A stretch of 64,000 bases of DNA. Origin: Anaeromyxobacter paludicola (GTDB lineage: Bacteria; Myxococcota; Myxococcia; Myxococcales; Anaeromyxobacteraceae). The notes below the pieces were generated by a model, which had not been told where the DNA came from, did no database searches, and saw nothing but the letters and a program-made list of their open reading frames with translations. The stretch is from contig NZ_AP025592.1 in the NCBI RefSeq assembly GCF_023169965.1, forward strand, positions 2,604,001 to 2,668,000. Direction: 5' to 3'. This document shows positions 19,186 through 54,359 of the stretch, one piece after another (the first letter of the stretch is position 1; each line of letters opens with the position of its first letter). Both the position numbers and the translations under genes were made by a program.

Positions 19186-19637
19186 GGCGGGAGCCCCCCT
19201 CGGCCCTGGCCCATGACACTCCTCGGCGCGCGAGCGGGCGCGCGTCATTCGGGGTCGTGCCCTTTGCGCGGCGAGCGCCGGGTGGACGCGCGGCCGAGCG
19301 ACTTTCGGTGAATGGAAAGTGGCGGCCGCCGAGATGGGGAGACCTCGACGGCCGCCTGGCTCACGAGTCATCGGGAGGGGGGATTCCCGACGCCCAGGGC
19401 GCCAAAGCGATTGACCGGCTTGGGGGGGCCGGTTCCGGCGAGCGGGCTTGGGGATCCGCCGCCGCAATCACCTGAACCACTCAATGCAAGGAGAGGGGCG
19501 TCCATTCCCGGGACGAAGGTTCCTGGAATGACGGACGTTTTCTCGTTTCGGGCCCCGCCAAGAGACGGGGTCGGGGCCGACCCCCGGGTCGGCCCCGCGC
19601 ACCTCGAGGCCAGGCCGGCGCGCCTCGGCCCGGGCGC
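19186..19637. other. intergenic region with two strong hairpins
   Basis: About 450 bp without a convincing gene. Hairpin one at 19321-19356 has arms GGCGGCCGCCGAG/CTCGACGGCCGCC with a 10-nt loop and lies upstream of the hexahaem gene, so it may belong to that gene's leader. Hairpin two at 19572-19597 has 12-bp perfect arms (CGGGGCCGACCC/GGGTCGGCCCCG) and lies just past the stop of the minus-strand tetrahaem gene, where a terminator is expected, although no uridine run follows it. Confidence 0.45.
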
Positions 19638-21854: not shown

Positions 21855-22994
21855 TCACCCGCCGACGCACGCGCCGGCGACGCAGGCGCCCGAGGTGCCG
21901 CAGGGCGTCCCGTCGGCGGCGTTCCCGGTCGGGTTGCAGGTGCCGATCCCGCCGTTGCAGGTGGTCGTGCCGGTGCGGCAGGGATCCGAGGGCTGGCAGG
22001 AGAGCCCGTCCCAGCAGGCGCGGAAGTCCCAGGTGGCCGAGACCACGCCGCCCGTGCCGCAGGTCTTGGTGTACTGGCCCTGGATGAAGCTGTCGCCGTT
22101 CACCTGCGTCCCCACGTAGCTCCCGCCGCAGCTCGTGAGGTTGATCTGCAGGGTGTCGAAGAGCGTGGCGAGGTCCTGCGACAGGCTCGGGTCGGTGCAG
22201 GTGAGCGCCCAGCGGGCGTTCATCCCCCAGCGGAAGTCGGCGCCGTGCACCTCGGCCACCGAGAGCTCGAGGTCGTGCGCGCGCGCGTCGGGCGTGCAGG
22301 TGGCGCTGCCCGCGGTGAGCGTGTCCGCGTCGAGCGTGACGGTGCCGGTCATCCAGTAGGTCGGCTCGGTCGCGCTGGTCCAGGCGTAGAGCGCGCCGGT
22401 CCCGCTGGCCGTGAACGGGACGCCGACGGTCTGCGTGAGCGTGAAGGTCCCCTGCAGGTCCGGCGTCTGCCCGAGCACGAGCGCCCAGTCGCTCAGGTGC
22501 GGCGTGGTCGCGGTCACGGTGTCGGCGGCGGCGTCGTAGGAGAGGCCGTCGGGCGCCACCCAGAAGCCGCGCGCGTCCTGGTAGCGGATGGCGAGCGACT
22601 TCAGCGCCACGCCCGAAGGGTAGCTGCTGCCGAGCCCCTTGAAGGTGACCTTCACCGGGCCGGCCAGCGGCTGGTCGGCCTCGAGCCGGACGGTCTGCGT
22701 GAGCGCGCCGGGGGCGTGGCTGGTGAGCGGCGTCGCCGAGAAGGTAGTCGCGGCGGCCACCGCGCCCGCCGGCACGGTGAGCGTCCAGGCCCCGTCGTCC
22801 GCGGCGAGCGCGCCCCCCTCCGGCCCGATCTGGATCGCCGTGGCGAGCCCGAGCGGCGTGCCGACGGCGGTGGCGGTCGGCACGGGGGTCCCGCGCGGCT
22901 GGGAGCTCGTGCCGGTGGAGGAGCCGAGGGTGCAGCCCGCGACGGCCAGGAGCAGCAGGGGCGCGCAGGCGCGGAGCGAGGGGCGGACGGGCAT
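21855..22994 (-). CDS. secreted lipoprotein, last gene of the OmcS locus
   Basis: 379 residues with lipobox LAVAGC and a Ser/Thr/Pro-rich linker. The middle has a ZU5/adhesin-like beta region: IGPEGGALAADDGAWTLTVPAGAVAAATTFSATPLTS. The C-terminal third is Cys-rich (DPCRTGTTTCNGGIGTCNPTGNAADGTPCG), a pattern common in myxobacterial surface proteins. It starts 5 bp after the upstream NHL gene and is the final gene of the long minus-strand operon. It is probably displayed on the outer membrane. Function unknown; an adhesion or filament-anchoring role would be speculation. Confidence 0.75.
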   Translation of the reverse strand: MPVRPSLRACAPLLLLAVAGCTLGSSTGTSSQPRGTPVPTATAVGTPLGLATAIQIGPEGGALAADDGAWTLTVPAGAVAAATTFSATPLTSHAPGALTQTVRLEADQPLAGPVKVTFKGLGSSYPSGVALKSLAIRYQDARGFWVAPDGLSYDAAADTVTATTPHLSDWALVLGQTPDLQGTFTLTQTVGVPFTASGTGALYAWTSATEPTYWMTGTVTLDADTLTAGSATCTPDARAHDLELSVAEVHGADFRWGMNARWALTCTDPSLSQDLATLFDTLQINLTSCGGSYVGTQVNGDSFIQGQYTKTCGTGGVVSATWDFRACWDGLSCQPSDPCRTGTTTCNGGIGTCNPTGNAADGTPCGTSGACVAGACVGG

Positions 22995-22999
22995 GGCGC

Positions 23000-23977
23000 T
23001 CACATCGTCACCGCCGAGACCGGGGGCGGCGGGGCCGGGGGCAAGGGGTACTGGAACACCTTCACGCCGCGCTCGCGGGCCTGCGAGACGAAGAGCTTGC
23101 CGTTGCCCACCGCCAGCCCGTACGGCGCGATGAGGTTCTCCGGCCCGTCGCCGCGGTACCCGAACTCGAGCAGGAAGGTGAGGTTCCGGTCGAAGACCAG
23201 CACCACGGAGCGGAGCCGGTCGAGCACGAAGACGGTGCCGCGCTCGTCGGTGGCGATCGCGCCCACGATGTTGAACTTGCCGGGCGAGCTCCCGCGGGCG
23301 CCGAACTGCCGCAGCTCCCCGCCGGGCGACAGCTCGAAGGCGGTGAAGGAGAGCGGCAGCGTGAAGAAGAAGCGCCCCTGCGCGTCGGCCCAGAAGCCGC
23401 CCATCCCGAGCTTGAGGGCCGAGTCGTACTTCGTCACCAGCGGCGCGAGCTCGAGGGTCCGCAGCACCTCGCCCTGCTCGTCGGCGACCACCACCCGCAT
23501 GGCGGTGGTCTCGACCAGGAACACCTTCCCGGCCAGCGCCTGGACGAGGTCCGGCGCGAAGCCGGAGAAGGCCGGGGGCAGCTTCTTCAGCTCGAAGGGC
23601 CCGAGCTTCTCGCCGCGGAAGTCGCAGCGAAGCAGCACCCGCTGGTCCATCATCCGGCTGAGGAGCAGGACGTCCCCGCTCTCCAGCGGCGCCACCCGCT
23701 CGACCGACCCGACGTCCCCGTCGCCGCCGAAGGCGTAGTACTCCATCCCGGCGCGGTTGAAGAGGTGTACCTGGCCGCCGTAGGTCGCGAAGAGCTCGTC
23801 GTGGCCGCGGTCGTAGGCGATGGTGGCCCAGGTGGACTCGCTGAGCCCGCCCGCGGTGGCGAGGTCGAAGACGTAGCTGGGCGGCGTCGCCGCCGGCGGA
23901 GCGCGCGGCGCCGCGCGCGCGGACGAAGCCGCGGCGAGCGCGAGCGCGCCGAGCAGGCCTGCCAGCCGTCGAGCCAT
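23000..23977 (-). CDS. secreted NHL-repeat beta-propeller protein 2
   Basis: 325 residues with signal peptide (LLGALALAAASSARA). NHL-type blades are visible, for example STWATIAYDRGHDELFATYGGQVHLFNRAG, ALKLGMGGFWADAQGRFFFT, IVGAIATDERGTVFVLDRLRSVVLVFDRNLTFLLEFGYRG and PYGLAVGNGKLFVSQARERGVKVFQ. Six blades fit the length. It lies 14 bp after the first NHL gene. NHL proteins regularly accompany multihaem cytochrome clusters in Geobacter and relatives and may help assemble or tether extracellular cytochromes; the exact role is not known. Confidence 0.8.
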   Translation of the reverse strand: MARRLAGLLGALALAAASSARAAPRAPPAATPPSYVFDLATAGGLSESTWATIAYDRGHDELFATYGGQVHLFNRAGMEYYAFGGDGDVGSVERVAPLESGDVLLLSRMMDQRVLLRCDFRGEKLGPFELKKLPPAFSGFAPDLVQALAGKVFLVETTAMRVVVADEQGEVLRTLELAPLVTKYDSALKLGMGGFWADAQGRFFFTLPLSFTAFELSPGGELRQFGARGSSPGKFNIVGAIATDERGTVFVLDRLRSVVLVFDRNLTFLLEFGYRGDGPENLIAPYGLAVGNGKLFVSQARERGVKVFQYPLPPAPPPPVSAVTM

Positions 23978-23991
23978 CCTCGCGAAGCCCC

Positions 23992-24894
23992 CTACTTCGC
24001 CAGCGAGAACACCTGCACGCGGTTGTTGTTCCGGTCCGCCACCACCGCGAGCCCCTCCCCATTCACGCAGAGCTGGACCGGATAGTACAGCGCCGCTTCC
24101 TTCCAGCCCATCGCCAGCTCGCGGGACTGGTAGCTGCCGTCCGTCCCGAGCACGACGATCGAGTTCCCGTGCTGATCCACCACGTAGAGCCGGCCGTGCC
24201 CGTCCGGGGTGAGATAGGACGGGAAGCTGATCTTGTCCTTGAGGCTCTCGCCCACCGCCTGGAACGCCGCCGCCGAGGGCTCGGCCACCCAGAGCCGCGC
24301 CGCCGTGGTGTCGAGCGCGAAGAGCTTCCCGGAGGCATCGACCGCGACGTCGGTGAACTCCTCCGTGCCGCGCGGCAGGGCCACCTCGCGCGCGACCTTC
24401 CCGTCGGGCTCGAGCACCAGCACCCGCCGCGAGGCCACGTCGAGCACGTAGAGCCGTCCGGCCGGGTCCACCTTGAAGGAGAGCGGGACCACCGGCGCGC
24501 CGCCCGAGGCCCCCTTCACCTCGACGGCGCCGCCGAACCCGCCCGAGCCGTCCACGCGCACGATCTTCTTCGTCTTCCGGTCGAGGGCGAGGACGTTGCC
24601 CTTGCCGTCGATCTGCACGCGCACGGGATAGGTGAGCTGCGCGAGCTGCACCGGCGCGCCGCCGGTCAGCTTGCCGTCGCGGTACGCGTAGGTGAGCAGG
24701 CGGGCGTTGCCGGTGTCGGCCACCACCAGCGCCCCCTTGTCGTCGCAGGCCACCCCCTCCGGCCACTTGAGCGGGCCTTCCTTGTCGTCGGCGTAGATCG
24801 ACCCGACGTGCTTGAGGGAGGCGGCCCGCGAGGCGGCGGGGGCGAGGAGCGCGGCCGAGAGGAGCAGCAGGAGCGGGAGTCGGGTCGTCGTCAC
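23992..24894 (-). CDS. secreted NHL-repeat beta-propeller protein 1
   Basis: 300 residues starting at GTG 24894 with a signal peptide ending AASRA. NHL blades: WPEGVACDDKGALVVADTGNARLLTYAY, YPVRVQIDGKGNVLALDRKTKKIVRVD, FKVDPAGRLYVLDVASRRVLVL, FPSYLTPDGHGRLYVVDQHGNSIVV, CVNGEGLAVVADRNNNRVQVFSL. The start lies 4 bp after the stop of the 16-haem gene with GAGGTAG as ribosome-binding site. It is probably periplasmic or cell-surface, in the same pathway as the cytochromes upstream. Confidence 0.85.
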   Translation of the reverse strand: MTTTRLPLLLLLSAALLAPAASRAASLKHVGSIYADDKEGPLKWPEGVACDDKGALVVADTGNARLLTYAYRDGKLTGGAPVQLAQLTYPVRVQIDGKGNVLALDRKTKKIVRVDGSGGFGGAVEVKGASGGAPVVPLSFKVDPAGRLYVLDVASRRVLVLEPDGKVAREVALPRGTEEFTDVAVDASGKLFALDTTAARLWVAEPSAAAFQAVGESLKDKISFPSYLTPDGHGRLYVVDQHGNSIVVLGTDGSYQSRELAMGWKEAALYYPVQLCVNGEGLAVVADRNNNRVQVFSLAK

Positions 24895-24898
24895 GGTG

Positions 24899-26227
24899 CT
24901 ACCTCTTGAAGTTCTCGTGACAGTTGGTGCAGAGGGCCGTCGCGTTCGCGAAGGGCACCATGTTCTTGTACTCGGAGCCGTGGGCCCGGTGGCAGCTCTG
25001 GCACGCCAGCGTCAGGTTGGCGTTGCGCGGGTCCTTCACCTTCGGGCCGATCGGGTGCGACGAGTGCTTCTGCCAGTCGTGGCAGCTCCCGCACAGCTCG
25101 ATGCCGTTCGCGTTCTTGAACAGCAGCGGCAGCTCGCCCGCGTGCGGATCGTGGCACTTGTAGCAGTCGCCCGCGGCGATGGGCCGGTGCTTGGTCTTGG
25201 AGCCCTCCTGGCGCCGGATGGTGTCGGCGTGGCAGGCGCCGCAGACCGCGACCGCGTTGGCCTTGAGCAGCCCCTTGTCCTTGGAGGCGTGCGGCCCGTG
25301 GCAGGAGAGGCAGGCGCCCTCGGCCACCGGCTGGTGGACCCGGCTGTGCTCGAGCATGGCCGTCATCTTCTGCGCGTGGCAGCCGCGGCAGAGCTCGGCC
25401 CCCGCCTGCCGCGTCTTGAAGGGGGTCCTGGAGGTGGCCGGCTCGTGGCACATGGCGCACTGCCCGCGGGCGACCGGCGGGTGCGCGTTGGCGAGGAACA
25501 TGCCCTCGGCGTTCGAGCCGTGCGGATCGTGGCAGCTCGTGCAGCGGGTGGTCTTCACCGGGTAGTTGAGGTGCTTCTTCGCGAGCGCGGGCGACTCGAT
25601 CTTGTGGCAGTTGAGGCAGAGCCCCGGCACGTCGGTGCGCAGCAGCGCGGGCGCCGCCTGCGAGCCGTGCGGGTCGTGGCAGACCGAGCAGCCCTTCTCG
25701 ACCGGGTGGTGCTTGTGCTTCGCGGTCGCGGCCGCCTCGGCGATCGCCTTGTGGCAGGAGGCGCAGAGCTCGTTGCCGTCCTTCACCAGGTTGCCCTTGA
25801 AGGCGGAGGCGTGCGGGTCGTGGCAGCCGGTGCACTTCCCCTCGGCCACCGGCTTGTGGGTGCTCCTCGGCGCGGCGCGCAGGACCCCCGCGTGGCAGTT
25901 GAGGCAGATGCCCTGCGGCGTGCCGTCGAGGAGCTTGGCGTGCTCGGAGGCGTGCGGGTTGTGGCAGCCGGTGCAGTCGCCGTTCTTCACCGGCGTGTGG
26001 ACCGAGGCCTTCTTGAGCCGGGGCTCGAAGTCGGCGTGGCACTCGAGGCAGACCTTGCCGCTGCCGCCCGGCTTGAGCTTGAAGCCGGCGCCGCCCGGCG
26101 AAGCCGGGACGCCCGAGGAGCGGGCCTTCTTGGCCTTCCCGGCCGCCGCCACCGCGCGCTTCGCTGCCGGCGCGGGCGCGGCCCCGAGGGTGATGGTCGC
26201 GACGAGGACGATGGTTTGGACGAGCAT
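24899..26227 (-). CDS. 16-haem periplasmic c-type cytochrome (doubled CXXCH repeats)
   Basis: 442 residues with a signal sequence (TIVLVATITLGAAPAPA) and a basic linker. I count 16 CXXCH motifs, from CLECH to CTNCH, arranged as pairs with the recurring pattern CxxCHDPHxS...LCxxCH typical of the doubled-CXXCH (Paired_CXXCH) family. There is no lipobox. The gene follows the 26-haem gene after 9 bp and precedes two NHL genes. A long, repetitive periplasmic wire carrying electrons toward or through the outer membrane is the likely job, by analogy with high-haem cytochromes near omcS in Geobacter. Confidence 0.92.
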   Translation of the reverse strand: MLVQTIVLVATITLGAAPAPAAKRAVAAAGKAKKARSSGVPASPGGAGFKLKPGGSGKVCLECHADFEPRLKKASVHTPVKNGDCTGCHNPHASEHAKLLDGTPQGICLNCHAGVLRAAPRSTHKPVAEGKCTGCHDPHASAFKGNLVKDGNELCASCHKAIAEAAATAKHKHHPVEKGCSVCHDPHGSQAAPALLRTDVPGLCLNCHKIESPALAKKHLNYPVKTTRCTSCHDPHGSNAEGMFLANAHPPVARGQCAMCHEPATSRTPFKTRQAGAELCRGCHAQKMTAMLEHSRVHQPVAEGACLSCHGPHASKDKGLLKANAVAVCGACHADTIRRQEGSKTKHRPIAAGDCYKCHDPHAGELPLLFKNANGIELCGSCHDWQKHSSHPIGPKVKDPRNANLTLACQSCHRAHGSEYKNMVPFANATALCTNCHENFKR

Positions 26228-26236
26228 CGTGCGCCC

Positions 26237-28192
26237 CTACTTCCTCTTCTCGGTGACGTGGCAGCCGTCGCACTGACGCGCGGCGAACGGCGGGTGCACG
26301 TTCGACTTGAACATCTTGGTGTCCTTGGAGGCGTGCGCGGTGTGGCAGCTCGTGCACGCCATCCGGGCCGGCTCGATCGACAGGTGCGCCGACCTGAAGT
26401 GGTCGTCCTTCGTGTCGTGGCAGCCGTCGCAGAGCTGGTGGACCGGCTGGTTGAGCAGCTTCGGCTGGCCCGCCGCGTGCGGCTGGTGGCAGTTGCCGCA
26501 GCCGTAGAACGGCGCGTGCTTGGTCTTCTCCTTCAGCCCGGCCGCCATGTCCTTGTGGCAGCCGAAGCAGAGGTCGGGCGTCTGCGCCAGGAGGAGCTTC
26601 TTCAGCCCGGCCTTGTGCGGGTTGTGGCACTTGGTGCAGTCGCCCTTGCCGAAGGCGGCGTGGACCGTCTTCGACTCCTTGTCCTCGCGCGCCTGCCTGG
26701 CGTGGCACCTGAAGCAAAGCGCCTTCTGGTCCTGCTTGAGCAGCCCGCGGTGGCTGGAGGCGTGCGCCTCGTGGCAGTCGAGGCAGCGCCCCTCGATGTA
26801 CGGCTTGTGGTTGTTCGCGCCCACGTCCTTCATCAGCGCGGCGTGGCACTGCAGGCAGAGCCGCGCCCCCTCCTCCTTGAGGAGCTTGCGGTTGTCGGAG
26901 GCGTGCCCGTCGTGGCAGGCGCTGCACTTCCCCTCGGCCACCGGCCGGTGGGTGAAGGTCCGGGCGAACTTCTGCTCCAGGTCGGCGTGGCAGCCCAGGC
27001 AGACCTTGTCCTGCCGGGCGTTCATCATGCCGGTGACGCTCGAGCCGTGCGGATCGTGGCATCGGGTGCAGTCGCCCCGGTCGAGCGCGGCGTGGACCAC
27101 CTTGAGCCCGCGCATCCGCTTCTCGAACTTGGAGTGGCAGCTCGCGCACTGCGCGGCCGGCGCGGCGGTGAGGAGCTTCTTCTCCTTGCTCGCGTGCGGC
27201 GCGTGGCAGTTGAGGCAGCCGCGGCCGTCCTGCACCACCTTGTGGGCCACCGCGAACCTCTGGCCCTGCTGCGGGTGGCAGTTGAGACAGACCTGGTTGC
27301 CCGCCGCGCTCACCAGCCTGGGGTTCTCCGAGGCGTGCGGGTCGTGGCAGGAGAGGCACTCGCCCCGCTTCACCGGCGCGTGCTGCACCGGCCCGCCCTT
27401 GTCGAGCTTCGCGGGCTCGTGGCACCTGGCGCAGAGCTTGCTCAGCTCGCCCTGCACCAGGAACGGCTTGGGGGTGGTCGGCGCCAGGTGGCAGGAGGCG
27501 CAGGAGCCGCTCGCCACCACCGAGTGGACCGAGGCCTTGAGCAGCTTCCTGTCCTCCGCCGAGTGCGGATCGTGGCAGCGGCTGCAGGCGCGCGCCGGGT
27601 AGCCGCCGTGGGCCTTCTTGAAGGGCGCGGCGTCGGGCTTGTGGCACCCGGCGCAGAGCGCCCCCTCCTCGGCCTTCAGCAGCCGGCGCTGCGCCGACGC
27701 GTGCGAGAGATGGCAGGCGCCGCAGCCCTCCCTGGCCACCACCGCGTGGACGACCTTCCGCTGGAAGGGCTTCTTGTCGTGGCAGCCGAAGCAGGCCGCG
27801 CTCCCCGCCGCCTTGAGCATGTGCGGGGAGTCGGAGCCGTGCGCGTCGTGGCACGAGAGGCAGGAGCCGTTCTTGAGCACCGGGTGGACGTTCGGCCTGT
27901 CCATCCCGATGGCGTCGCGCTTGTGGCAGCGGTAGCAGAAGTCGTTGCCGCTCTCCTTGAGCAGGAGCTTCGGCACGAGGCCGTGCCGCAGGTGGCACTC
28001 CTCGCACTTCTTCTCCTTCACCGCCGCGTGCGCGTACTTGTACTTCGCGTACCTGTCCGCGACCTTGGTGTGGCAGTCGAGGCACTGCTTCTGCTTGAAC
28101 TGCTCCGCCGCGGCGCGGCCGGGCGCGCCCGAGAGCGCCGCGGCCGCGAGGGCCACGGCCAGCCCGGCGCCCCAGGACATGGGCTTACGCAT
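26237..28192 (-). CDS. 26-haem c-type cytochrome (doubled CXXCH repeats)
   Basis: 651 residues; signal peptide MRKPMSWGAGLAVALAAAAL ending GRAAA. I count 26 CXXCH motifs spaced every 20-30 residues, with the repeating unit GxCxxCHDPHxS...LLK...LCxxCH. The first motifs are CLDCH and CEECH, the last CTSCH and CDGCH. The frame opens with two further ATGs up to 28207; I prefer 28192 for the cleanest signal peptide. It lies 30 bp downstream of the prolyl isomerase gene. Being so large and repetitive, it probably forms an extended periplasmic wire, a close relative of the 16-haem neighbour. Confidence 0.92.
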   Translation of the reverse strand: MRKPMSWGAGLAVALAAAALSGAPGRAAAEQFKQKQCLDCHTKVADRYAKYKYAHAAVKEKKCEECHLRHGLVPKLLLKESGNDFCYRCHKRDAIGMDRPNVHPVLKNGSCLSCHDAHGSDSPHMLKAAGSAACFGCHDKKPFQRKVVHAVVAREGCGACHLSHASAQRRLLKAEEGALCAGCHKPDAAPFKKAHGGYPARACSRCHDPHSAEDRKLLKASVHSVVASGSCASCHLAPTTPKPFLVQGELSKLCARCHEPAKLDKGGPVQHAPVKRGECLSCHDPHASENPRLVSAAGNQVCLNCHPQQGQRFAVAHKVVQDGRGCLNCHAPHASKEKKLLTAAPAAQCASCHSKFEKRMRGLKVVHAALDRGDCTRCHDPHGSSVTGMMNARQDKVCLGCHADLEQKFARTFTHRPVAEGKCSACHDGHASDNRKLLKEEGARLCLQCHAALMKDVGANNHKPYIEGRCLDCHEAHASSHRGLLKQDQKALCFRCHARQAREDKESKTVHAAFGKGDCTKCHNPHKAGLKKLLLAQTPDLCFGCHKDMAAGLKEKTKHAPFYGCGNCHQPHAAGQPKLLNQPVHQLCDGCHDTKDDHFRSAHLSIEPARMACTSCHTAHASKDTKMFKSNVHPPFAARQCDGCHVTEKRK

Positions 28193-28222
28193 GACGTGCA
28201 TCTCCACTCCCGTTGCAGCGGC

Positions 28223-29998
28223 TCACCCCGCGATGCGGGTGATGAGCACGTCCACCTTCTGCACCTTGCGCAGCCTGGCCGCGTAGTCCCGCAGCCCCGC
28301 CGCGATCTTCTCGCTCTCCAGCTCGCGGGCCAGCTTCTCGCGCGCGTCGGCGTACGGCTGGACGCTCGGCGGCACCTGCTCCACCACGCGCACCGCGTAG
28401 TGCTCGGCGCCGTCGGCGCTCGAGAAGAGCCGGTACTCGCCGTTCTTGGCGCCCGAGAGGACCTTGGCGAGGCCGGCCGGCAGCCCGTTGGCGCTCACCA
28501 CCTTGCCGTCGAAGCGGAGCTGCTGCTTCTCGGCGTCGAGCTGGCCGTCGGCGCTGGCGCGCATCCAGTTGAGGTCGGTGCCGCCCTTGAGCTTCTGGAC
28601 GGCCCCCTCGGCGGTCCGCCGGTCCTTGAACCCGAGCCCGTCGAGCCGGTACATGGCCGGCACGGTGAGCTCGCCCTTCTGCTTCTCGTAGCGCGCCTTG
28701 GCCTCGTTCTCGGTCACCTTCACGCCGGGCACGATGACCTTCTCGACGAAGACGTTGAGCGCGAGCACCCGCTCGTACTGCCGCACCTTGGCGCGGAACA
28801 CCGCGGTCTGGTCCAGCTTCCGCTCCGCCGCCTCGCGGGCGAAGAGCCGCGCGCCGAGCAGGGTCTCGAAGGTGTCCACCTTGAGCGGGTTGACCCGGTG
28901 CTCCTTGATGGGCCCGTCGAGGCCGTGGAAGAACTTCTTGGAGAGGTCGTCGGTCAGGTCGGCGATGGTCAGCGGCCGCTCGCCGCGGATGAGGGCCAGC
29001 GGGCGCGGATCCTTCGCGAGCGCCTGGAACCCGGCCTCGCCCCTGGCCTCGAAGTCGAGCTGCTTGAGGAGCGGCTCGTCCACCGTGGCGTACTTCTTCA
29101 CGAGCTCCTGGTAGAAGCGCCGGATCGCCTTGAACTGCTGGGACGAGAGCGACGCCGCGCGGGCCTCGGCGAGCGCCTTCGCGTCCTTGGGGTAGCGCTC
29201 GCCCTCGATCCGGAGGACCACCCAGCCGCCGGTGGTCTTCACGGGCTCGCTCACCTCGCCCTGCTTCAGCCTGGCGGTCGCGTGGGCCAGCTCGGGCAGG
29301 AGCTTCTTGCCCGACACGTAGCCCGGCTCGCCGCCCTCGGCCTTCTTCGCCGCCACCGCGGCCCTGGCGAGCTCGGGGAAGCCCTTGCCCTTGGCGAGGT
29401 CCTCGCGGAAGCGCTTCGCCTCGGCCTCCTGCTTGAACATCACCGAGCGGATCTTCCACTGCTTCACGGCCGCCTTGAAGCTCTTGTCCACCTCGGCCGG
29501 ATCCGGCTTCACCTTGGCCGTCACCTGCCCCTGCAGCATGCCGCGCAGCGTGGTGGCCTTGAACGCCTCCAGCGCCGACCGGGCGTCGGGCTGGTCGATG
29601 AGCCCCATCGTCTTCGCCTCGAGCGCGAGGAGCCGCACGTCCACGAGCCGGTCGAGGGTCGGCTTGTAGTCCATGTCCTTCGGCCTGGCGCCGTGGCGCG
29701 CGCCGGACTTGCCCGCCATGTGGGCCTGGCCGAGCGCGTCGGCGAGCTCCCCCAGCAGCACCGGGTCGTCCTCGCCGGCGACGCGCGCGATGGGACAGCC
29801 GGCCGTCTTCGGCGAGAAGAGCGGGGCGCGCAGCTCGCCCCCTTCACCCGGCGTGACCTGGCAATCCGCCGCGCCGGACGGGGCGGTCTGGAGGATGGCG
29901 GCGGCGCCGGGCGCCTTACCGGTGCCGGGCGACGCGGCGGCGAACAGCGGGAGGGCCCCGAGCAGCAGGCCGTTGAAGATCGAGGTGAGACGCATCAT
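28223..29998 (-). CDS. secreted parvulin-type peptidyl-prolyl isomerase (SurA/PpiC-like)
   Basis: 591 residues with signal peptide (GLLLGALPLFAAA). A SurA-N-like helical region (DYKPTLDRLVDVRLLALEAKTMG...) precedes a parvulin domain near residues 230-290 with GEPGYVSGKKLLPELAHATARLKQGEVSEPVKTTGGWVVLRIE. A second partial repeat (TVPAMYRLDGLGFKDRRTAEGAVQKLKGG) follows. It heads the run of cytochrome genes. Prolyl isomerases of this type are a regular part of Geobacter cytochrome-nanowire clusters and probably fold or deliver the secreted cytochromes. The start is the first of two adjacent ATGs. Confidence 0.85.
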   Translation of the reverse strand: MMRLTSIFNGLLLGALPLFAAASPGTGKAPGAAAILQTAPSGAADCQVTPGEGGELRAPLFSPKTAGCPIARVAGEDDPVLLGELADALGQAHMAGKSGARHGARPKDMDYKPTLDRLVDVRLLALEAKTMGLIDQPDARSALEAFKATTLRGMLQGQVTAKVKPDPAEVDKSFKAAVKQWKIRSVMFKQEAEAKRFREDLAKGKGFPELARAAVAAKKAEGGEPGYVSGKKLLPELAHATARLKQGEVSEPVKTTGGWVVLRIEGERYPKDAKALAEARAASLSSQQFKAIRRFYQELVKKYATVDEPLLKQLDFEARGEAGFQALAKDPRPLALIRGERPLTIADLTDDLSKKFFHGLDGPIKEHRVNPLKVDTFETLLGARLFAREAAERKLDQTAVFRAKVRQYERVLALNVFVEKVIVPGVKVTENEAKARYEKQKGELTVPAMYRLDGLGFKDRRTAEGAVQKLKGGTDLNWMRASADGQLDAEKQQLRFDGKVVSANGLPAGLAKVLSGAKNGEYRLFSSADGAEHYAVRVVEQVPPSVQPYADAREKLARELESEKIAAGLRDYAARLRKVQKVDVLITRIAG

Positions 29999-30092
29999 GC
30001 CCCCAGGTGACCAGCCGTGAAATACCGGTGGAACTACACCCCGCGTGCTGCTCAACCTACCTTGAATCCTGCTCTTTCTTCCCTGGCGGCGA

Positions 30093-31283
30093 TCAAGGAA
30101 TCTCGTTGGCCGCGCGGGCCATCGTCCCCCGTGCAGGCTTTGCGGGAAGAGGCCCTGAATCGGGGAGCTTGGGCCGGTCACCGAGCATCGCGTCCACCAC
30201 TCCGCGCGCCATCCGGCAGGTGAGCGCGCTGGCGGTGCTGACCCGGCCGACGCCGAAGAAGTAGACGCCGTCCTCGCCGGTGGCGTTCGAGGTGGAGGAC
30301 CAGGCGAGCTCCGCCGTCTGCCGGTCGAGGACGTACACGCCGAGCGCGACGCTCGGCGCGCCGGTCGTGCCGGACGCGTCGGCGAAGGTGCGGACCGTGC
30401 CCGAGAGGACCAGGTCGGCGCTCAGGAGCTCCAGGAGCGCCCGGGCGTCGTCGAGCCCGATGCCGCCGGTGGCGCCGAAGCGGTAGGTGAGCAGCTCCTG
30501 CCGGACCACGCCGGGCTCGAGGACGCGGACGGTCCCCGAGGCGATGAGCGGCCCGAGGAAGCGGAGCGCGGCGATCTCGCCGGCGTCGCGCCGCTGCGTG
30601 TCGTTCACGAAGGGCAGCACCGCGACCGTGCGGCGCGCCGCGTCGGAGAGGAACGGCGCGCTGTAGGAGCGGCTCGGCCGGATGGCGCCGCCGTCCCCGC
30701 ACGGCGCGCGGGGCACGGGGGCCCGGAGCGAGGCCGCGAGCGAGGCCGCGAGCTGCTCGAAGGCGCGGTCGCGCACCCGCTCCATGCTGCCCAGGATCCC
30801 GGCGCCGAGGAGCCCGGGGTGGTCCTTCCCGGTCCCGGCGTAGGCGTCGAGCCAGCGGATCTCCGGCTCGGGGTCGGTGGTGACGAGCCGCATCGTCAGC
30901 GCGAACCGGTACGGCGGCAGCGCCGAGTAGAGCTCGAGCGTCGGCACGATGATCCCGGTCGCGCCGGTCTGCTCGCGCAGCACCGTCGCCGCCTCGCGAT
31001 CGACCGCGCCGGTGTAACGCAGCCTCCGGCTCGCCAGCGCCTTCATCACCGCGATGTCGGGGACGAGCGGGAGCCCCTGCTTCTCCAGGGTCGCGCGCAG
31101 CGCCGCCGTGAGCTCCTTCGACGGCGCCGGGCCACCGTTGAGGTTCAGCACCGGGTAGAGCACGAGGAGCGGCGCGGGCGCGGTGACGGCGGCCGGCCTG
31201 GCCCCCCGACACCCTCCCAGCACCGCCGCCGCGAAGAGCCCGAGCGCGAGGGCCTTACTGGAAGAGCTTCCGGAGGAGGTCAT
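30093..31283 (-). CDS. LpoB/CsgG-like lipoprotein
   Basis: 396 residues; lipobox AAVLGGC. Two alpha/beta modules of the LpoB/CsgG type are seen: LLVLYPVLNLNGGPAPSKELTAALRATLEKQGLPLVPD with GATGIIVPTLELYS, and RTVAVLPFVNDTQRRDAGEIAALRFLGPLIASGTVRVLEPG with LLSADLVLSGTVRTFAD. Its ATG lies 29 bp inside the 3' end of the preceding gene, so translation is coupled. CsgG and LpoB relatives act in outer-membrane secretion pores or in periplasmic assembly, which fits a cluster exporting filament cytochromes, but no export function has been shown here. Confidence 0.75.
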   Translation of the reverse strand: MTSSGSSSSKALALGLFAAAVLGGCRGARPAAVTAPAPLLVLYPVLNLNGGPAPSKELTAALRATLEKQGLPLVPDIAVMKALASRRLRYTGAVDREAATVLREQTGATGIIVPTLELYSALPPYRFALTMRLVTTDPEPEIRWLDAYAGTGKDHPGLLGAGILGSMERVRDRAFEQLAASLAASLRAPVPRAPCGDGGAIRPSRSYSAPFLSDAARRTVAVLPFVNDTQRRDAGEIAALRFLGPLIASGTVRVLEPGVVRQELLTYRFGATGGIGLDDARALLELLSADLVLSGTVRTFADASGTTGAPSVALGVYVLDRQTAELAWSSTSNATGEDGVYFFGVGRVSTASALTCRMARGVVDAMLGDRPKLPDSGPLPAKPARGTMARAANEIP

Positions 31284-31851
31284 CGACCGCGTCCTCGGTC
31301 ACGTCGTTGAGCGGCTCGCCGCCGCCGGTTCCGAGGAGCCGCGCGGCCCAGGTCACGCCGCCCTTGGTGGAGGTGGCCGCCCAGACCACCTTGCCGGTCG
31401 CGCACTCCTGCATCTGGACGCCGACCGAGACCACGTTGGAGACGGCCGAGGTGGCGCGGACCTCGCCGTACTCCTTCACCACCCCGGTGATCACCGCGTC
31501 GGCCTTGAGCATCGGGCAGAGCTTCGCCATCTCCTCCGCGGTCGGGGACGAGGACGAGGTGAGCCCGACGCGCGAGATGGCGCGCGCGACCTCGCCGTTC
31601 GGCATCACGTACACGGCGCGCGTGGAGAGGAGCGCGTTGGAGAAGACCTCGCGGACGCGGTCCGCCGACTGCTGGTTCTGGGTCAGGTTCCAGAACGGCA
31701 TCACGGCGACGGTCTTCACGCCGGAGAAGTCCATGTTCGGATCGTGATACGGGCGGTGCTTCGCGCAGCCGGCGAGGAGCGCGAGCAGGAGCCATGGCAC
31801 CGCGAGCCTGGATCTCACGACCGACATGACGATGCGTGGAGAATACACCAT
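31255..31851 (-). CDS. GNA1162/DUF799-like lipoprotein
   Basis: 198 residues with lipobox LLALLAGC. The mature part, VKTVAVMPFWNLTQNQQSADRVREVFSNALLSTRAVYVMPNGEVARAI..., SPTAEEMAKLCPMLKADAVITGVVKEYGEV and VWAATSTKGGV, matches the GNA1162-type lipoproteins of the CsgG/LpoB superfamily. Start: ATG 31851 with GGTGA close upstream, or ATG 31827 without a clear ribosome-binding site. The frame overlaps the next gene by 29 bp and begins 5 bp after the beta-barrel stop. Likely forms an outer-membrane assembly with the following LpoB-like lipoprotein. Confidence 0.75.
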   Translation of the reverse strand: MVYSPRIVMSVVRSRLAVPWLLLALLAGCAKHRPYHDPNMDFSGVKTVAVMPFWNLTQNQQSADRVREVFSNALLSTRAVYVMPNGEVARAISRVGLTSSSSPTAEEMAKLCPMLKADAVITGVVKEYGEVRATSAVSNVVSVGVQMQECATGKVVWAATSTKGGVTWAARLLGTGGGEPLNDVTEDAVDDLLRKLFQ

Positions 31852-31855
31852 TTGA

Positions 31856-34027
31856 TCACCATAGGATGCTGAGTCCCACGGACAGGGTGCGCGATCGCGT
31901 CTCCTGCACGGGTGAGGTGGTGTGCAGGATGGTGTAGCTGGCCGTGGAGGTGACATTGCGTCGAATGATCCAGCGCAATGCGGGAGTGAAGATCTCGGTC
32001 GTGGTGTCCGACGCGGTGTCGAGCGTCCTCGCGTAACCGGCCGAGAGCTGGAGATCGCCGCGGAACGGCGAGTAGTTGAGCTGCACCGTCGCGAGCGTGC
32101 TCGGGCTGCCGCTCGGCACGACCAGCGTCCTGGACACCGTCGCGCTCCCGGAAAGGGCGTCGGTCGGGTGGAAGGCGACGCTGGCGTCCACCCGGGCCGA
32201 CTCGGAGTCGATCGGCTCCTCCGACTCCGACGAGTAGACCCGGCTCACCGAGGAGAGCCAGCCGAGCGTGAAGGAGACGAACCGGTTCGGCACGGCCGAG
32301 GCGGTCAGGTTGAAGGTGCCGGTCCAGGTGTCCTTGGTGGCGTCGTTGACCACGCTGCCGGCCGCGTTGGCCTGGGCGCTCAGCCCCTCCCACAGGTCGG
32401 CCCGCGCGAAGGCGCTGATCGTGTCGGTGAGCGCGCCGGCCGACTCGACGTACTGGCCGCTGTAGATGAGTGAGCTCGTGAGCGTGGGGAGCGGGGTCCA
32501 GATGAGCCCCGCGTTCCACTGGGTCTGGCCGGTGTGTCCGGTGCCGGCGTCGGAGTCCAGCCGGACGACGCGCTCGGTGGCCTGGAGCGTGGCCGAGAGC
32601 CGCTGCGACGCCCCGAGGCCGTTCGACACGCCGTAGGTGGTGACGTCCGGCGAGACCTGGCGGGCGAGGAAGACGGTCACGTCGTGGGTGAGGTTCGCGC
32701 GCCGCCAGAGCAGGGTGGTGGCGCTGGCGTTGAGCGCGGCGCTCGAGGTGGTCCGCTCGCGCGGGACGGCGCTCGCCGGCAGCACGAGGAAGGTCTGCAC
32801 CTCGGTGACGAGGACGCTCGCGAGGGTGGTGTCGAGGGTGCTCCCGGCGACGAGCGGGGCGGTGACCGCCTTGAGGTACCGCGCCTGCGTGCTCTGGATC
32901 GGGAGCTCGAAGCGGTTCTCGAAGGAGTCGAAGGTGACCGGCCCGGTGATCGGCACCGCGGTCCACTTCAGGTTGTCGTCGCTCCGGTAGACCGACCAGG
33001 TGTAGCTCCCGACCACCTCCGCGCGGACCTTGCGATCCACCCAGACCCGGACGGTGTTGACCGGGGTCACCGCGTCCGCGAACTGGACGCCCATCTCGCG
33101 CAGGTTGCGGTCGCCGGCGAGCGACGGGCCGTAGCCGATGTCGAGGGAGGCGCCGGTGGTGAGGCTCCCGTCCACCAGCGCCGGGTTGGGCGAGAGGGTG
33201 TCCGTCCCGGGCTCCGCCGGGAAGACGTCGACGAGCGACAGCCCGGAGAGCGGACGCTGCTGCTGGGTGATCGTCCCGGTGCCCACGTAGCTCGTGGAGA
33301 CGTTCTGGTTGTGGAGGGTGAGCGAGGCGTAGACGGTGGTCCGGTCCTCGAGGAGCCGCTCGCTGTAGGTGGCCTGCGCCGTCTGGTCGATCGAGTTCGA
33401 GACCGTGCCGCCGATGGCGTCGTCGGGGCGGTTCCAGCTCAGCACGTACTTGAAGTCCCACGGCGCCGGCGTGTAGAGCGCGGACAGGAGCGCCGCCGTG
33501 GTGGTGGTGTCGATCCGCGCGCGTTCCACGTCGTAGACGTGCCCGCGGGTCACCTGGAGCGTCACCTGCGGCAGCTCCAGCGGGCGCCACCCGACCACGC
33601 CGGACCAGGTCTCGTTCACCACCCGGGGAGAGCCGTAGGTCGCCTCGTCGCGCAGGTCGTAGCTGAGGCCGCTCGTGAGGTACGGGAGCGTGAGCGTCAG
33701 GCGGCCGTAGACGCCTCGCGCCCGGTCGTCGTCGAGGCTCGAGCCGGTGGGCCCGTCGCTCCAGGTCCGCTGGTCCCGGAAGAGCCCGCCCGCGGTGAGC
33801 GAGAGCGCCGGGCTCAGCCGCTCGTCGAGGGTGAGCCGGTAGTTCTGCAGGAGGGAGCGCGAGTCGAGGTGCGTGGTCCGGCCGGCCTGGTCGGTCGTGT
33901 CGGTGCTGGTCACGCTGTAGGTCGGCTCGAGGTACAGGCTGAGGATGTCGGCGCGCGCCGCGAAGGCGCCCGCCGCCAAGGCGAGCGCCAGCAACCACCG
34001 GCAAGCGGCTCGAGCCCCCCAGCTCAT
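31856..34027 (-). CDS. large outer-membrane beta-barrel protein with inserted F5/8-C-like domain
   Basis: 723 residues with a signal peptide (LLALALAAGAFAARA). Most of the chain consists of alternating polar/hydrophobic beta strands such as GVYGRLTLTLPYLTSGLSYDL, TTVYASLTLHNQNV and ATVQLNYSPFRGDLQLSAGYART. The last residues SVGLSILW end in an aromatic residue as outer-membrane barrels do. Residues about 290-390 (LDIGYGPSLAGDRNLREMGVQF... VRVWVDRKV... SVYRSDDNLKWTAV... ARYLKAV) resemble a discoidin (F5/8 type C) domain inserted between strands. It lies next to cytochromes and is a candidate outer-membrane conduit or export channel for the OmcS filament. Confidence 0.8.
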   Translation of the reverse strand: MSWGARAACRWLLALALAAGAFAARADILSLYLEPTYSVTSTDTTDQAGRTTHLDSRSLLQNYRLTLDERLSPALSLTAGGLFRDQRTWSDGPTGSSLDDDRARGVYGRLTLTLPYLTSGLSYDLRDEATYGSPRVVNETWSGVVGWRPLELPQVTLQVTRGHVYDVERARIDTTTTAALLSALYTPAPWDFKYVLSWNRPDDAIGGTVSNSIDQTAQATYSERLLEDRTTVYASLTLHNQNVSTSYVGTGTITQQQRPLSGLSLVDVFPAEPGTDTLSPNPALVDGSLTTGASLDIGYGPSLAGDRNLREMGVQFADAVTPVNTVRVWVDRKVRAEVVGSYTWSVYRSDDNLKWTAVPITGPVTFDSFENRFELPIQSTQARYLKAVTAPLVAGSTLDTTLASVLVTEVQTFLVLPASAVPRERTTSSAALNASATTLLWRRANLTHDVTVFLARQVSPDVTTYGVSNGLGASQRLSATLQATERVVRLDSDAGTGHTGQTQWNAGLIWTPLPTLTSSLIYSGQYVESAGALTDTISAFARADLWEGLSAQANAAGSVVNDATKDTWTGTFNLTASAVPNRFVSFTLGWLSSVSRVYSSESEEPIDSESARVDASVAFHPTDALSGSATVSRTLVVPSGSPSTLATVQLNYSPFRGDLQLSAGYARTLDTASDTTTEIFTPALRWIIRRNVTSTASYTILHTTSPVQETRSRTLSVGLSILW

Positions 34028-34032
34028 GGCGC

Positions 34033-35439
34033 CTAGTATCGCTCCGTCGCGAGCTTCACCTCGTAAGGATCGTCCGCGACGTCGATGGTGGAGAGCAGCC
34101 GGCGGCTGGTGAGGTCGAGGACCGCCACCGCGCGCTTCCCCGGCATCAGCGCGAAGAGCTGATCCTGGACGGCGTCGATGGCCATGCGCGACACCCAGCC
34201 CGGCAACTCGAAGGTGTCCACCGGGAGCATCGAGAAGGGGTCGAACACCTGGATCCGCGGGTCCCCGCCCCGCGCCACGTAGACGAGGTCGGTCCGGGAG
34301 TCCACCTCGACGCCCGTCGCGCCCAGCCCCACCAGGATCCGGCGCGTGAGGGCGAAGGTGGGGAGCGCGTACTCGATCATGTACGGCGAGCCGGCGTGAA
34401 TGACGTACAGGCGCGTGCCGTCGCGGCTGGTCTGGGCGAAGAGCGGCTCCGGGTCGGTCGGGATGGTGGCCACCACCGTCCGGCTAGCGAGGTCGATGAC
34501 GCTGAGCGAGTTGGAGCGGCGGTTCACCACCACCGCGCGGTTGCCCGAGCGCAGCAGGAGCACCGACCAGGGCGCCTCGCCCACGTCGGCCCGGCCCAGC
34601 TCCATGGTCGAGAAGCCGTCCACGAAGCTCGCCGTCCGCGAGCGGAAGTTGACGACGAGCAGCGTCCGCCGGTCCGGGAGGAGCACCAGCTCCCGCGGCT
34701 CGTCCCCGGCGCGGAGCGCGATCTGCGCGACCCGGTCGGCCCGGGTGAGGTCGAGGACCTCGAGCCGGTCCTCCCCGCCGAGCGCCACGTAGGCCCGGCT
34801 CGACGCGGCGTCGAGCGCGAGCCCGTAGGGCGATTGACCGAGCGCGACGTAGCCGCCGATGCGCTTGGTGCGGAGGTCGAACAGGGTGAGGTCGTTGCTG
34901 CGCGTGTTGACGCAGGCGCCGACGAGCGCCACCGGGGTGAGCGCGGGGACGGCGGCGTGGAAGCGCGGATCGAAGCGGAAGCCCGCCTCCAGCGAGGTCG
35001 CCACGTCGAGCGAGACCTCGAGCGCGAGGGCCTGGCCGGAGCGAAGCTCGAAGCCCACGTCGGCGCGGGACGGGTTGGCCTCGAGGAGCAGGTCGGTGCG
35101 GCCCTCCGGAGACTGGAGCCGCGGCCGGGAGAGCGTGAGCGCGAGCCCCACGTACTTGCCTCGGGGCAGCCGTCCCTGCGCGAGGAGCCGCTCGGGCGCG
35201 GGCTGCTCGGCGCCGCCGACCTCGGGGCCGAGGACCGTCAGCGGGATCGCCTCGCCGCTCTCGAGCAGCGCCGCGGCGCCGTCGATCTGGAAGGAGAGCC
35301 GGCCCGCCTCGTGGGCCAGCGGCAGGAGGTAGACGTAGAGCTGACCCTCGCCGTCCAGCGGCGGCGCGCTCACGGGCGGCCTTCCCGCCAGGGCGCAGCC
35401 GGCGAGCGCGAGCGTGCAGGCGAGGAGGCTCCAGCGCAT
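34033..35439 (-). CDS. YVTN-type beta-propeller lipoprotein
   Basis: 468 residues; lipobox LALAGC. Residues about 30-165 form a beta-sandwich-like region (LPLAHEAGRLSFQIDGAAALL, KYVGLALTLSRPRL). The rest is a seven-blade propeller with YVTN-style repeats: VNTRSNDLTLFDLRTKRIGGYVALGQSPYGLALD, SSRAYVALGGEDRLEVLDL, VVNRRSNSLSVIDLASRTVVATI, LVYVARGGDPRIQVFDPF. The gene begins 19 nt after the uridine run of the omcS terminator and 5 bp before the barrel gene. It is probably exposed on the outer membrane with the barrel protein. Confidence 0.82.
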   Translation of the reverse strand: MRWSLLACTLALAGCALAGRPPVSAPPLDGEGQLYVYLLPLAHEAGRLSFQIDGAAALLESGEAIPLTVLGPEVGGAEQPAPERLLAQGRLPRGKYVGLALTLSRPRLQSPEGRTDLLLEANPSRADVGFELRSGQALALEVSLDVATSLEAGFRFDPRFHAAVPALTPVALVGACVNTRSNDLTLFDLRTKRIGGYVALGQSPYGLALDAASSRAYVALGGEDRLEVLDLTRADRVAQIALRAGDEPRELVLLPDRRTLLVVNFRSRTASFVDGFSTMELGRADVGEAPWSVLLLRSGNRAVVVNRRSNSLSVIDLASRTVVATIPTDPEPLFAQTSRDGTRLYVIHAGSPYMIEYALPTFALTRRILVGLGATGVEVDSRTDLVYVARGGDPRIQVFDPFSMLPVDTFELPGWVSRMAIDAVQDQLFALMPGKRAVAVLDLTSRRLLSTIDVADDPYEVKLATERY

Positions 35440-35513: not shown

Positions 35514-36932
35514 TTAGTCCTTGCCGTGGCACTTGTTGCACAGCGAGCGCTGGAAGGCGCCGAAGTCGGTCGCCGTGCGGCCGTAGTACGCGGCCTGGAG
35601 CGCCGTCGCGCCGCGGGCCTGCGTGTCGACGAGCGCGTTCGCGTTCGTGATGAACGTGTCGTCGTTGTTCCAGCGGACCATGCTGCTGAAGCCAGACGCG
35701 TGGGCGCGGTGGCAGGAGAGGCAGGTCACGTTCGACTTGTCGGTGGCGGTGAAGATGTTGTTCGCCGCCGGGTTCGCCAGCTTGCCCAGATCGGACACGG
35801 CGCCGCTGTTGCCGGTGACCGAGATGATCTTCGCGCTCTCGAAGGGCACCAGCGAGGTGTACTGGTCACCCGTCCCGGTGAAGACGCCGCTCGAGACGTA
35901 GGTGTTGTACACGTTGAACTGGCCGGGCTTGAGGGAGGCGTTGTTGCCGGCCGGGTGCTTCAGGCCGGTGCCGCCGAGCGCGCCGGACAGGTAGTTGTCC
36001 ATGTGGATGTTGGTGTGGCAGTTGCGGCACCACTCCGCCATGCCGTTGCCGTAGGCGACGCGCACTTCCTTCGACCGATCGAGACCAGCGCCCGTTTCGG
36101 CCTTGTTGTAGTCCGTCGGCGCGACGGCCACCGGCGGGTTGTAGGTGAAGGGCGAGGCCGGGTTGGAGGCCGGAGCGTAGCCCTTGCCGCCGAGGAGGCG
36201 GTAGGCGCCGATAGCCTGGCCAGCGGCCGGCAGGTTGCCGTACGAGCCCGAGGAGTAGATCGGGGCCGTGATGGCGGTGTTGTCGCTGCCCGGAGCGGTC
36301 GGGCCGGCCCAGTTCCAGGTGGTGCCGGTCGCATCGGTCTGCATGCGCGTGCGGCCGTGCGGATCGTGGCAGCTCGAGCAGGAGAAGACCTTCTGCCCGG
36401 TGGCGTCGAACGACAGCGTGCCGCCCGGGGCGGTCAGCAGCGTGTCGGCCGGGATCACGAAGTCCGCGGCGACGATGTTGTGCCCGTGACGGTTCTGGAC
36501 GTCCGAGGCGTTGCCGCCGCGCAGGAGCCAGCCGAAGTCGCCGCCCGGCGAGTAGTTCATGTTGGCGAAATCGGTGGCCGGACCGGTGTTGACGATCACA
36601 TAGGGCCTGGTGCTGCCGCCCGCCGTCGTATCGCCGTGGCAGATGAGGCAGGTGGAGGACTGATCCGCCCCCTGCAGCAGGAACGCCGGGACCGCGTCGT
36701 TCCAGGGGTTCACCTTGGTCGAGCGCGCCACGCCGTTGGAGGCGTTGTGCATCACGTGGCAGCCGTCGCAGGCGGCGACGCCGCCGGCGTGGAAAGTGCC
36801 CGTCTTCGAGGTGGCGACTCCGTTGAACCAGCCCGTTGCCGTGACGTCCTTGCCCGTGACCGCGGTCTGAGCATTCGCTCCGAACGCGAAGGCGGCGATG
36901 ATGGCCGCCGCCCACTGCATCCTGATTCTCAT
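35514..36932 (-). CDS. omcS: OmcS-like hexahaem nanowire cytochrome
   Basis: 472 residues, signal peptide cleaved after ANA (residue 21). Six CXXCH motifs in OmcS order: CDGCH (55-59), CLICH, CSSCH, CRNCH, CLSCH, CNKCH (465-469). Sequence blocks that I know from Geobacter OmcS are retained: FHAGGVAACDGCHVMHN, LLQGADQSSTC, YSPGGDFGWL, HGHNIVAADF, SCSSCHDPHG, IGAYRLLGGKGY, VAYGNGMAEWC, LKHPAGN, CLSCHRAHASGF, AAYYGRTATDFGAFQRSLC. The His residues that bridge haems in the OmcS filament are in these blocks. ATG 36932 has GGGGAG 6 nt upstream; longer in-frame starts lie in the leader. Likely polymerises outside the cell into a conductive filament. Confidence 0.93.
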   Translation of the reverse strand: MRIRMQWAAAIIAAFAFGANAQTAVTGKDVTATGWFNGVATSKTGTFHAGGVAACDGCHVMHNASNGVARSTKVNPWNDAVPAFLLQGADQSSTCLICHGDTTAGGSTRPYVIVNTGPATDFANMNYSPGGDFGWLLRGGNASDVQNRHGHNIVAADFVIPADTLLTAPGGTLSFDATGQKVFSCSSCHDPHGRTRMQTDATGTTWNWAGPTAPGSDNTAITAPIYSSGSYGNLPAAGQAIGAYRLLGGKGYAPASNPASPFTYNPPVAVAPTDYNKAETGAGLDRSKEVRVAYGNGMAEWCRNCHTNIHMDNYLSGALGGTGLKHPAGNNASLKPGQFNVYNTYVSSGVFTGTGDQYTSLVPFESAKIISVTGNSGAVSDLGKLANPAANNIFTATDKSNVTCLSCHRAHASGFSSMVRWNNDDTFITNANALVDTQARGATALQAAYYGRTATDFGAFQRSLCNKCHGKD

Positions 36933-37670: not shown

Positions 37671-37791
37671 GTGACTCACCAGCACGGCCACGGGATACCG
37701 CGAGCGCTGGGGTTGGGCCCCCGGCGCTCCAAAGCACGAGCAGTGAACGCACGGCACGCGCACGTCGCGCGTGACCATGGGGAGAAGGCAA
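37671..37791 (+). promoter_or_regulatory. structured 5' leader, copy 1
   Basis: About 121 nt. A 26-nt block at 37673-37698, starting GACTCACCAGCACGG, is identical to 40998-41023. Hairpin I (37702-37729) has outer arms GAGCGC/GCGCTC. Hairpin II (37755-37773) has arms CACGCGC/GCGCGTG and ends 18 nt before the ATG, followed by TGGGGAGA. In copy 2 hairpin I has a different sequence but still pairs, which argues for selection on structure. Confidence 0.65.
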
Positions 37792-40646: not shown

Positions 40647-40970
40647 CATTCTGAGTGAATGACCCCTTCGCGCGAGGGTCGGTCCCTCCGATGGACTAGT
40701 CCTCGTCCGCGACGCCTCCCGCGGGCCCGCGAGCCGAGCTCGGTTCGTTCCGAAGTGAACGGGACAGGCAGGAACGCCCTGTGCCGAGCCCGAATCGTGG
40801 CGTTTGCGCCCCAGCCACTCCCGACCGTTCTTGCGAAGTTCACCCGGAGTCACTGTCGAGCCACCGCCCTCCGCGCGCCCCAGCCCATGCGGCAAATCCC
40901 CCAAGACACGACGCCACCCCCTTCCGGAGTTTCCGGTGGCAACCCGCGCGTTTGCGCCGTCACCGCGCGG

Positions 40971-40985
40971 GGCACGTTCGTTGCT
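40971..40985 (+). promoter_or_regulatory. sigma-54 promoter of the OmcA/MtrC-like gene
   Basis: GGCACGTTCGTTGCT matches the consensus fully (GGCACG-N4-TTGCT). Predicted start near 40996, giving a leader of about 123 nt. The remainder of 40647-40970 is non-coding. Confidence 0.8.
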
Positions 40986-40995
40986 AAGCCGCTCC

Positions 40996-54087: not shown

Positions 54088-54172
54088 TCGAAGCCTCCCC
54101 CGAACAGGCGAGCGCCGCGCACTTCACGCTGGGAGAGCGCACGGCGAGCCCAGACCCGAGCGGCTTTGCGGC

Positions 54173-54187: not shown

Positions 54188-54359
54188 CCGGACGAGCCGC
54201 CGATCTGGCCGACAATCGAGGCCATTCACCCACCGAGAACGACGGTCACTGGGTGTTATGCCGCAAGTTGTGTTTTTTTGACGCATTGCGCGGGCTCGCA
54301 GCCCTGCGCCGCGCCGGTAGATCCGGCAGCTTACCCTCACCATCGGGGGAGCTCGCCGG

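Follow-up and report, generated by a model that had tools for sequence, protein, structure and literature searches.

How does a bacterium fold a cytochrome filament, pass it through the outer membrane and keep it electrically joined to the cell? The question is raised by a 64,000-nucleotide stretch of the Anaeromyxobacter paludicola genome (hereafter the window, 72% guanine plus cytosine; G000:C1:2604001-2668000 of a 4.59-Mb single-contig genome), in which ten minus-strand genes lie downstream of a gene for an OmcS-family hexahaem cytochrome. We conclude, with a probability of about 0.85, that this set is an omcS-companion (osc) cluster, which would fold, export, anchor and charge the filament of the adjoining cytochrome. 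Gene content, order, conservation, paralogy, predicted folds and haem numbers were computed here; the roles of OscD to OscH are those given in reports on Geobacter.

The osc cluster was published in 2025 for Geobacter (Shen et al., as relayed by PMC13194489 and PMC12977616). In these later papers, the operon is proposed to act in the folding (OscH), secretion (OscE, OscF and OscG) and morphology (OscD) of OmcS nanowires (PMC13194489), and the eight-gene block GSU2500-2493 is tied to OmcS maturation and secretion (PMC12977616). The window cluster is a further member of this published system and not a new one.

Gene order and membership in the osc family

In the window, the OmcS-family hexahaem gene stands directly upstream of a collinear block of propeller, barrel, two lipoproteins, peptidyl-prolyl isomerase (PPIase), 26-haem cytochrome, 16-haem cytochrome and NHL protein (Table 1). 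OscD to OscH and OscK are named by gene position, OscI and OscJ by published name. All 16 fetched family loci show the order omcS-D-E-F-G-H-I-J-K, some of them traceable only to the end of the stretch or contig. Two or more of the genes D to H lie beside an OmcS-family gene in 46 of 80 GTDB loci collected with an OmcS alignment as the query, and these 46 span Desulfuromonadota/Desulfobacterota, Nitrospirota, Acidobacteriota, Rokubacteria, Krumholzibacteriia and others; the remaining loci are mostly stand-alone paralogues or short contigs. Because the order is kept across phyla, the gene set goes beyond chance. Twenty genomes have an OmcS-family locus that stands alone, and 14 of them also carry a strong OscF. 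Across 24 family genomes, 13 have both OmcS and OscF, 9 have neither, one has OmcS alone and one OscF alone (Fisher p 7e-5); the last two are incomplete assemblies. A scan of the GTDB collection with the barrel (OscE) alone confirmed zero loci. In GTDB, the relatives are records of Anaeromyxobacter and of other myxobacteria. What looked like a fusion of OscE with OscF at L115 (294-3050) came from reading the barrel region in the wrong frame and was dropped.

The closest described counterpart is the osc cluster of Geobacter sulfurreducens (GSU2504-GSU2493), in which an OmcS-family gene is likewise followed by a collinear eight-gene block with PPIase, barrel, lipoproteins and propeller in corresponding roles, together with oscI (GSU2495) and oscJ (GSU2494) (PMC13194489), the former with 26 haems (PMC12977616). 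G. sulfurreducens has omcS-omcT-oscC where the window has a single OmcS-family gene. The usual layout is L-omcS-D-E-F-G-H-I-J-K, whereas in the window the L propeller comes after K rather than before omcS, an extra lipoprotein is present, and the genome holds a second whole copy of the cluster. A core of 16-haem cytochrome, 26-haem cytochrome, PPIase and six-bladed propeller had already been reported in 2017, with Anaeromyxobacter among its carriers (PMC5539420). Its four genes are also in the window, but the barrel and the lipoproteins lie outside that core, and a link to OmcS assembly was not drawn there.

The first-pass annotation of this DNA had described ten closely spaced minus-strand genes behind omcS, and all ten are present, with intergenic distances from -29 (an overlap) to +94 bp. 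Its propeller lipoprotein, GNA1162/LpoB lipoproteins, prolyl isomerase and NHL protein find matches in Pfam or NCBIfam, its barrel appears in an AlphaFold 2 (AF2) model, and its two large cytochromes carry exactly the predicted 26 and 16 CxxCH motifs, beside 6 in the OmcS-family protein. The comparison of gene order beside omcS homologues that it had suggested yielded the conservation given above. Of the two NHL proteins that it named, K is clear; L is weakly propeller-like in one family scan and has a ScyF-like NHL match in NCBIfam. The final lipoprotein, M, is not a constant part of the set, with usable sequence in 8 of 17 family loci only and no family match in the Pfam and NCBIfam scans. 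Lipobox-like leaders were found by sequence inspection on D, F, G and M. The operon ends 26 bases from the convergent glmU, and a sigma-70 scan found no promoter, an uninformative result at 72% guanine plus cytosine.

The name omcS that the annotation had used holds for the family and not for the orthologue. The window cytochrome matches the OmcS structure (PDB 6ef8) with an E-value of 1e-75 and 47% identity. All 12 haem-ligand histidines, including His16, which we take to be the inter-subunit haem ligand in the OmcS structure, are kept in all 13 aligned sequences; this set does not discriminate OmcS orthology, because paralogues have it too. In a tree of 113 sequences, the window cytochrome groups with sequences of related genomes (seven in all) and not within the clade of OmcS itself (6ef8; support 0.95), which takes in three other loci of related genomes. 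As it lies outside the clade holding OmcS, its sequence marks it as an OmcS-family paralogue and not an OmcS orthologue. It is nevertheless likely to polymerise.

Table 1. Genes of the osc cluster and neighbouring cytochrome genes, in window coordinates
Feature	Position	Strand	Basis
OmcS-family hexahaem cytochrome, filament subunit candidate	35514-36932	-	6 CxxCH; PDB 6ef8 match
OscD: lipoprotein, N-terminal domain and YncE/YVTN beta-propeller	34033-35439	-	Pfam YNCE 3e-9; NCBIfam propeller repeats; lipobox LAGC
OscE: outer-membrane beta-barrel, inserted F5/8C (CBM32-like) domain	31856-34027	-	AF2 model, fold match MtrB
OscF: lipoprotein, single PelC/GNA1162-type domain	31255-31827	-	Pfam GNA1162 9e-8
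OscG: lipoprotein, two tandem PelC/GNA1162/CsgG-type domains	30093-31283	-	LpoB family match; AF2 fold
OscH: periplasmic foldase, two parvulin-type (PPIC) prolyl isomerase domains	28223-29998	-	Pfam Rotamase_2 6e-24, Rotamase 1e-11
OscI: 26-haem periplasmic cytochrome, MtrA/DmsE-like	26237-28192	-	26 CxxCH; TIGR03508; doubled-CxxCH family
OscJ: 16-haem periplasmic cytochrome, MtrA/DmsE-like	24899-26227	-	16 CxxCH; TIGR03508; doubled-CxxCH family
OscK: periplasmic NHL-repeat propeller	23992-24894	-	Pfam NHL 1e-20; conserved 3' of J
L: NHL-like propeller, in most genomes directly upstream of omcS	23000-23977	-	ScyF-type NHL 4e-11
M: sporadic accessory lipoprotein, operon end (set ends at 21855)	21855-22994	-	lipobox-like leader; few homologues
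Hexahaem cytochrome c7-type, just past glmU	18370-19467	-	Pfam Cytochrome_C7
Multihaem cytochrome of the array	37771-40590	+	
Multihaem cytochrome of the array	40804-44136	+	
Multihaem cytochrome of the array	51802-54123	-	
Multihaem cytochrome of the array	54321-56186	+	
Multihaem cytochrome of the array	56200-59178	+	
Multihaem cytochrome of the array	60789-63149	-	

The haem numbers of OscI and OscJ

All 35 intact OscI orthologues have exactly 26 haem motifs, and all 25 intact OscJ orthologues exactly 16 (duplicates removed). The two departures are frame-shifted genes, one split into 7 and 19 motifs (L029) and the other a broken J (L197). In six genomes, OscI and OscJ form a single open frame, OscI part first, with exactly 42 motifs. 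The fusion probably arose more than once, because one fused IJ is in an ordinary H-IJ-K cluster (L208) and the others are in a divergent sister type. Close OscI relatives outside osc loci carry 23, 24, 28 (five times) or 32 haems. Neighbourhoods were checked for the 32-haem (L205:9347-11704), the 23-haem (L205:15805-17643) and one 28-haem case (L206:9715-11940), and the surrounding 20 kb that were fetched showed no osc genes. Haem number is therefore variable in the family yet fixed in the osc setting. These relatives served as the control set in place of the other multihaem cytochromes of the window, which lack clean one-to-one orthologues within the family and hence are uninformative as haem-count controls.

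Both proteins score above the 192-bit cut-off of TIGR03508 (DmsE/MtrA family), OscI with 290 bits and OscJ with 207, and OscJ has a profile match to MtrA (6r2q chain A) at 1e-22; the table label of that chain, cystathionine beta-synthase, is plainly wrong, and the chain was taken as MtrA. The haems of OmcS are spaced at 4.67 nm per six, and at this spacing 42 haems span about 33 nm by computation. The periplasm is more than 40 nm wide in Geobacter and less than 30 nm in others (PMC10954620). As a speculative and rather doubtful proposal, OscI and OscJ may together be a fixed 42-haem wire spanning from the inner membrane to OscE, and the MtrB-like OscE, collared by PelC-fold proteins, may be both the exit of the filament and its plug to the cell. 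The length of the wire would then be set by the distance from the inner membrane to OscE. The total of 42 is kept whether the genes are split or fused, across phyla, and even beside cytochromes that are merely remotely OmcS-like. In the papers examined, which did not include the primary 2025 paper, we did not find haem-count constancy, the 42-haem fusion or the MtrB and PelC relations stated.

The proposed outer-membrane complex and competing readings

The OscE sequence by itself gave no family match; OMP_b-brl and F5/8C matches were obtained with members of its family, and a profile search matched CBM32. Its AF2 model (predicted local distance difference test [pLDDT] 92) is a barrel with some 28 strands and with the F5/8C-type domain inserted after strand 11. 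The best structural match is MtrB (6r2q_B, Z 19.4; next Z 17.5), and a match to the MtrB family of Pfam was found in none of 49 OscE family members. The cluster resembles MtrCAB in cytochromes of the MtrA/DmsE family and, less clearly, in a large predicted barrel whose best, though low-scoring, structural match is MtrB; it differs from MtrCAB in having 26 and 16 haems rather than 10, an F5/8C insert, PelC-like lipoproteins and a filament cytochrome in place of MtrC.

The lipoproteins point to a second likeness, with the PelBC exporter and the CsgG curli channel, in which lipoproteins of PelC/GNA1162/CsgG fold also stand beside an outer-membrane barrel. OscF, about 44-59% identical to most of its homologues, gives profile matches to GNA1162 (1.4e-7) and PelC (1.6e-6). 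The AF2 model of OscG (pLDDT 87) has two repeats, the C-half closest to PelC (Z 16.0) and the N-half to FlgT/TolB/GNA1162/CsgG (Z about 12-13), so that OscF and both halves of OscG have the fold of GNA1162, LpoB, TolB-N, CsgG and PelC in common. PelC forms a ring of twelve beneath the PelB barrel, and its Trp149 serves in membrane anchoring and is required for the ring (PMC12141448). OscE differs in its strand number (about 28, versus 16 in a PelBC-type barrel), OscF has no counterpart of PelC Trp149, and CsgG-like transmembrane hairpins were not seen in the OscG model. An invariant Trp149 in OscF was rejected as the equivalent residue, since it agrees in number only and aligns to a PelC tryptophan eleven residues earlier. 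A lipoprotein collar under the OscE barrel is, by analogy, a reasonable model, which is not to say that the proteins belong to PelBC.

We infer the following sequence of events for export, wiring and docking. OscH would escort the hexahaem cytochrome through the periplasm to OscE, the putative outer-membrane pore, which OscF and OscG would collar from below by virtue of their PelC/CsgG fold, and there the cytochrome would assemble into a filament. OscI and OscJ would act as one 42-haem unit that is docked to the MtrB-like barrel and passes electrons to the base of the filament, while OscD and the NHL propellers would dress the surface and periplasmic sides. We hold the details of export through OscE and of wiring by OscI and OscJ tentatively, at somewhat less than even odds. 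The annotation had proposed a set for assembly, export and wiring, and this agrees with the published osc cluster, although it is conjectural that the filament leaves via the barrel and that electrons flow through the 26- and 16-haem proteins. Its remark that the way OmcS crosses the outer membrane is not known is outdated, as the later papers link Osc proteins to this process; a 2025 review calls the secretion and anchoring of cytochrome filaments speculative. Its statement that the set holds everything needed was too strong, because an inner-membrane electron donor is not included and PilA-N is also required in Geobacter (PMC12307469).

Several points weigh against assigning the window cluster this function. 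Its cytochrome is placed outside the OmcS clade, so that filament formation is probable and not certain. The match of OscE to MtrB is modest (Foldseek template-modelling score 0.35-0.38, 7-8% identity), TonB-dependent receptors reaching Z about 17, and PelC Trp149 aligns to isoleucine or valine in OscF. In Geobacter, OmcS can receive its charge directly from PpcA-E (PMC10954620), so that a fixed wire is no strict requirement. Deletion of PilA-N in Geobacter abolishes extracellular OmcS and OmcZ (PMC12307469), so that the osc proteins are not the sole requirement.

The competing reading that survives best, which we nonetheless consider unlikely, is that the cluster is mainly an enlarged MtrAB-like porin-cytochrome conduit, in which OscE forms a sheath around the tip of OscI/J, while the filament is exported by another route and is just attached to the outer face of OscE. 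The ranking of MtrB as the best fold match of OscE and the MtrA affinities of OscI and OscJ fit such a conduit. OmcS-type filaments are about 4 nm wide, and the backbone diameter of a 28-strand barrel, about 5 nm by formula, would be tight for one. However, PelC-like lipoproteins and a double-rotamase foldase are features of export, the Geobacter accounts give OscE, OscF and OscG as requirements of OmcS secretion, and an MtrC-like outer cytochrome is absent from the cluster. It is improbable that a type IV pseudopilus machine exports the filament and that the osc proteins just fold, anchor or trim it; the PilA-N deletion speaks for this, but the cluster-specific barrel and lipoproteins travel with omcS across phyla and are themselves given as a secretion requirement in those same accounts. 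Least probable of all is that the 26/16-haem core serves syntrophic electron uptake and not filament building. A 2017 paper put this forward for the partners of methane-oxidising archaea, with the four core genes expressed in seep sediment (PMC5539420); against it stand the constant linkage of the core to OmcS-family genes, barrel, lipoproteins and foldase and the relayed Geobacter osc results.

A second copy, sister clusters and neighbouring cytochromes

The same genome holds a second complete osc cluster outside the window (G000:C1:2672373-2685242; L021:4373-17242), about 36-61% identical to the window cluster gene by gene. In nine of ten single-gene trees, the window-type cluster forms a clade with clusters of other species and not with L021 of its own genome. 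Because window-type genes group across species, the paralogous split of the two copies is old. The omcS of L021 is much closer to the omcS of another species than its companion genes are, and therefore cargo and machine are not strictly locked. Tree-distance correlations were 0.55-0.78 with species history uncontrolled, and carry no weight.

Divergent relatives of the osc cluster, in which the 42-haem cytochrome is fused, occur at L167 and L174 (G011:C37), L207 (G023) and L171-L173. In G011, where OmcS was undetected, the divergent cluster comprises the fused 42-haem protein, PPIase, NHL protein, barrel and lipoproteins, together with two hexahaem cytochromes that have only a remote likeness to OmcS. 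Part of this arrangement is seen again in G023. These clusters are possibly an undescribed sister filament system.

Near the window cluster, the cytochrome c7-type gene just past glmU is a candidate periplasmic carrier. The window also holds an array of six large multihaem cytochromes (7-15 haems; Table 1), which have a related N-terminal region of about 190-250 residues in common and are a paralogous expansion for which related genomes have few orthologues.

To the question of how such filaments leave the cell and stay electrically joined to it, in Geobacter as elsewhere, the comparison adds testable structure, in the form of a predicted barrel somewhat like MtrB, putative collar proteins akin to PelC and a number of haems that is constant only inside osc loci. 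Natural contrasts are at hand in a myxobacterial genome whose two osc clusters have diverged and in a sister system that has other hexahaem cytochromes.

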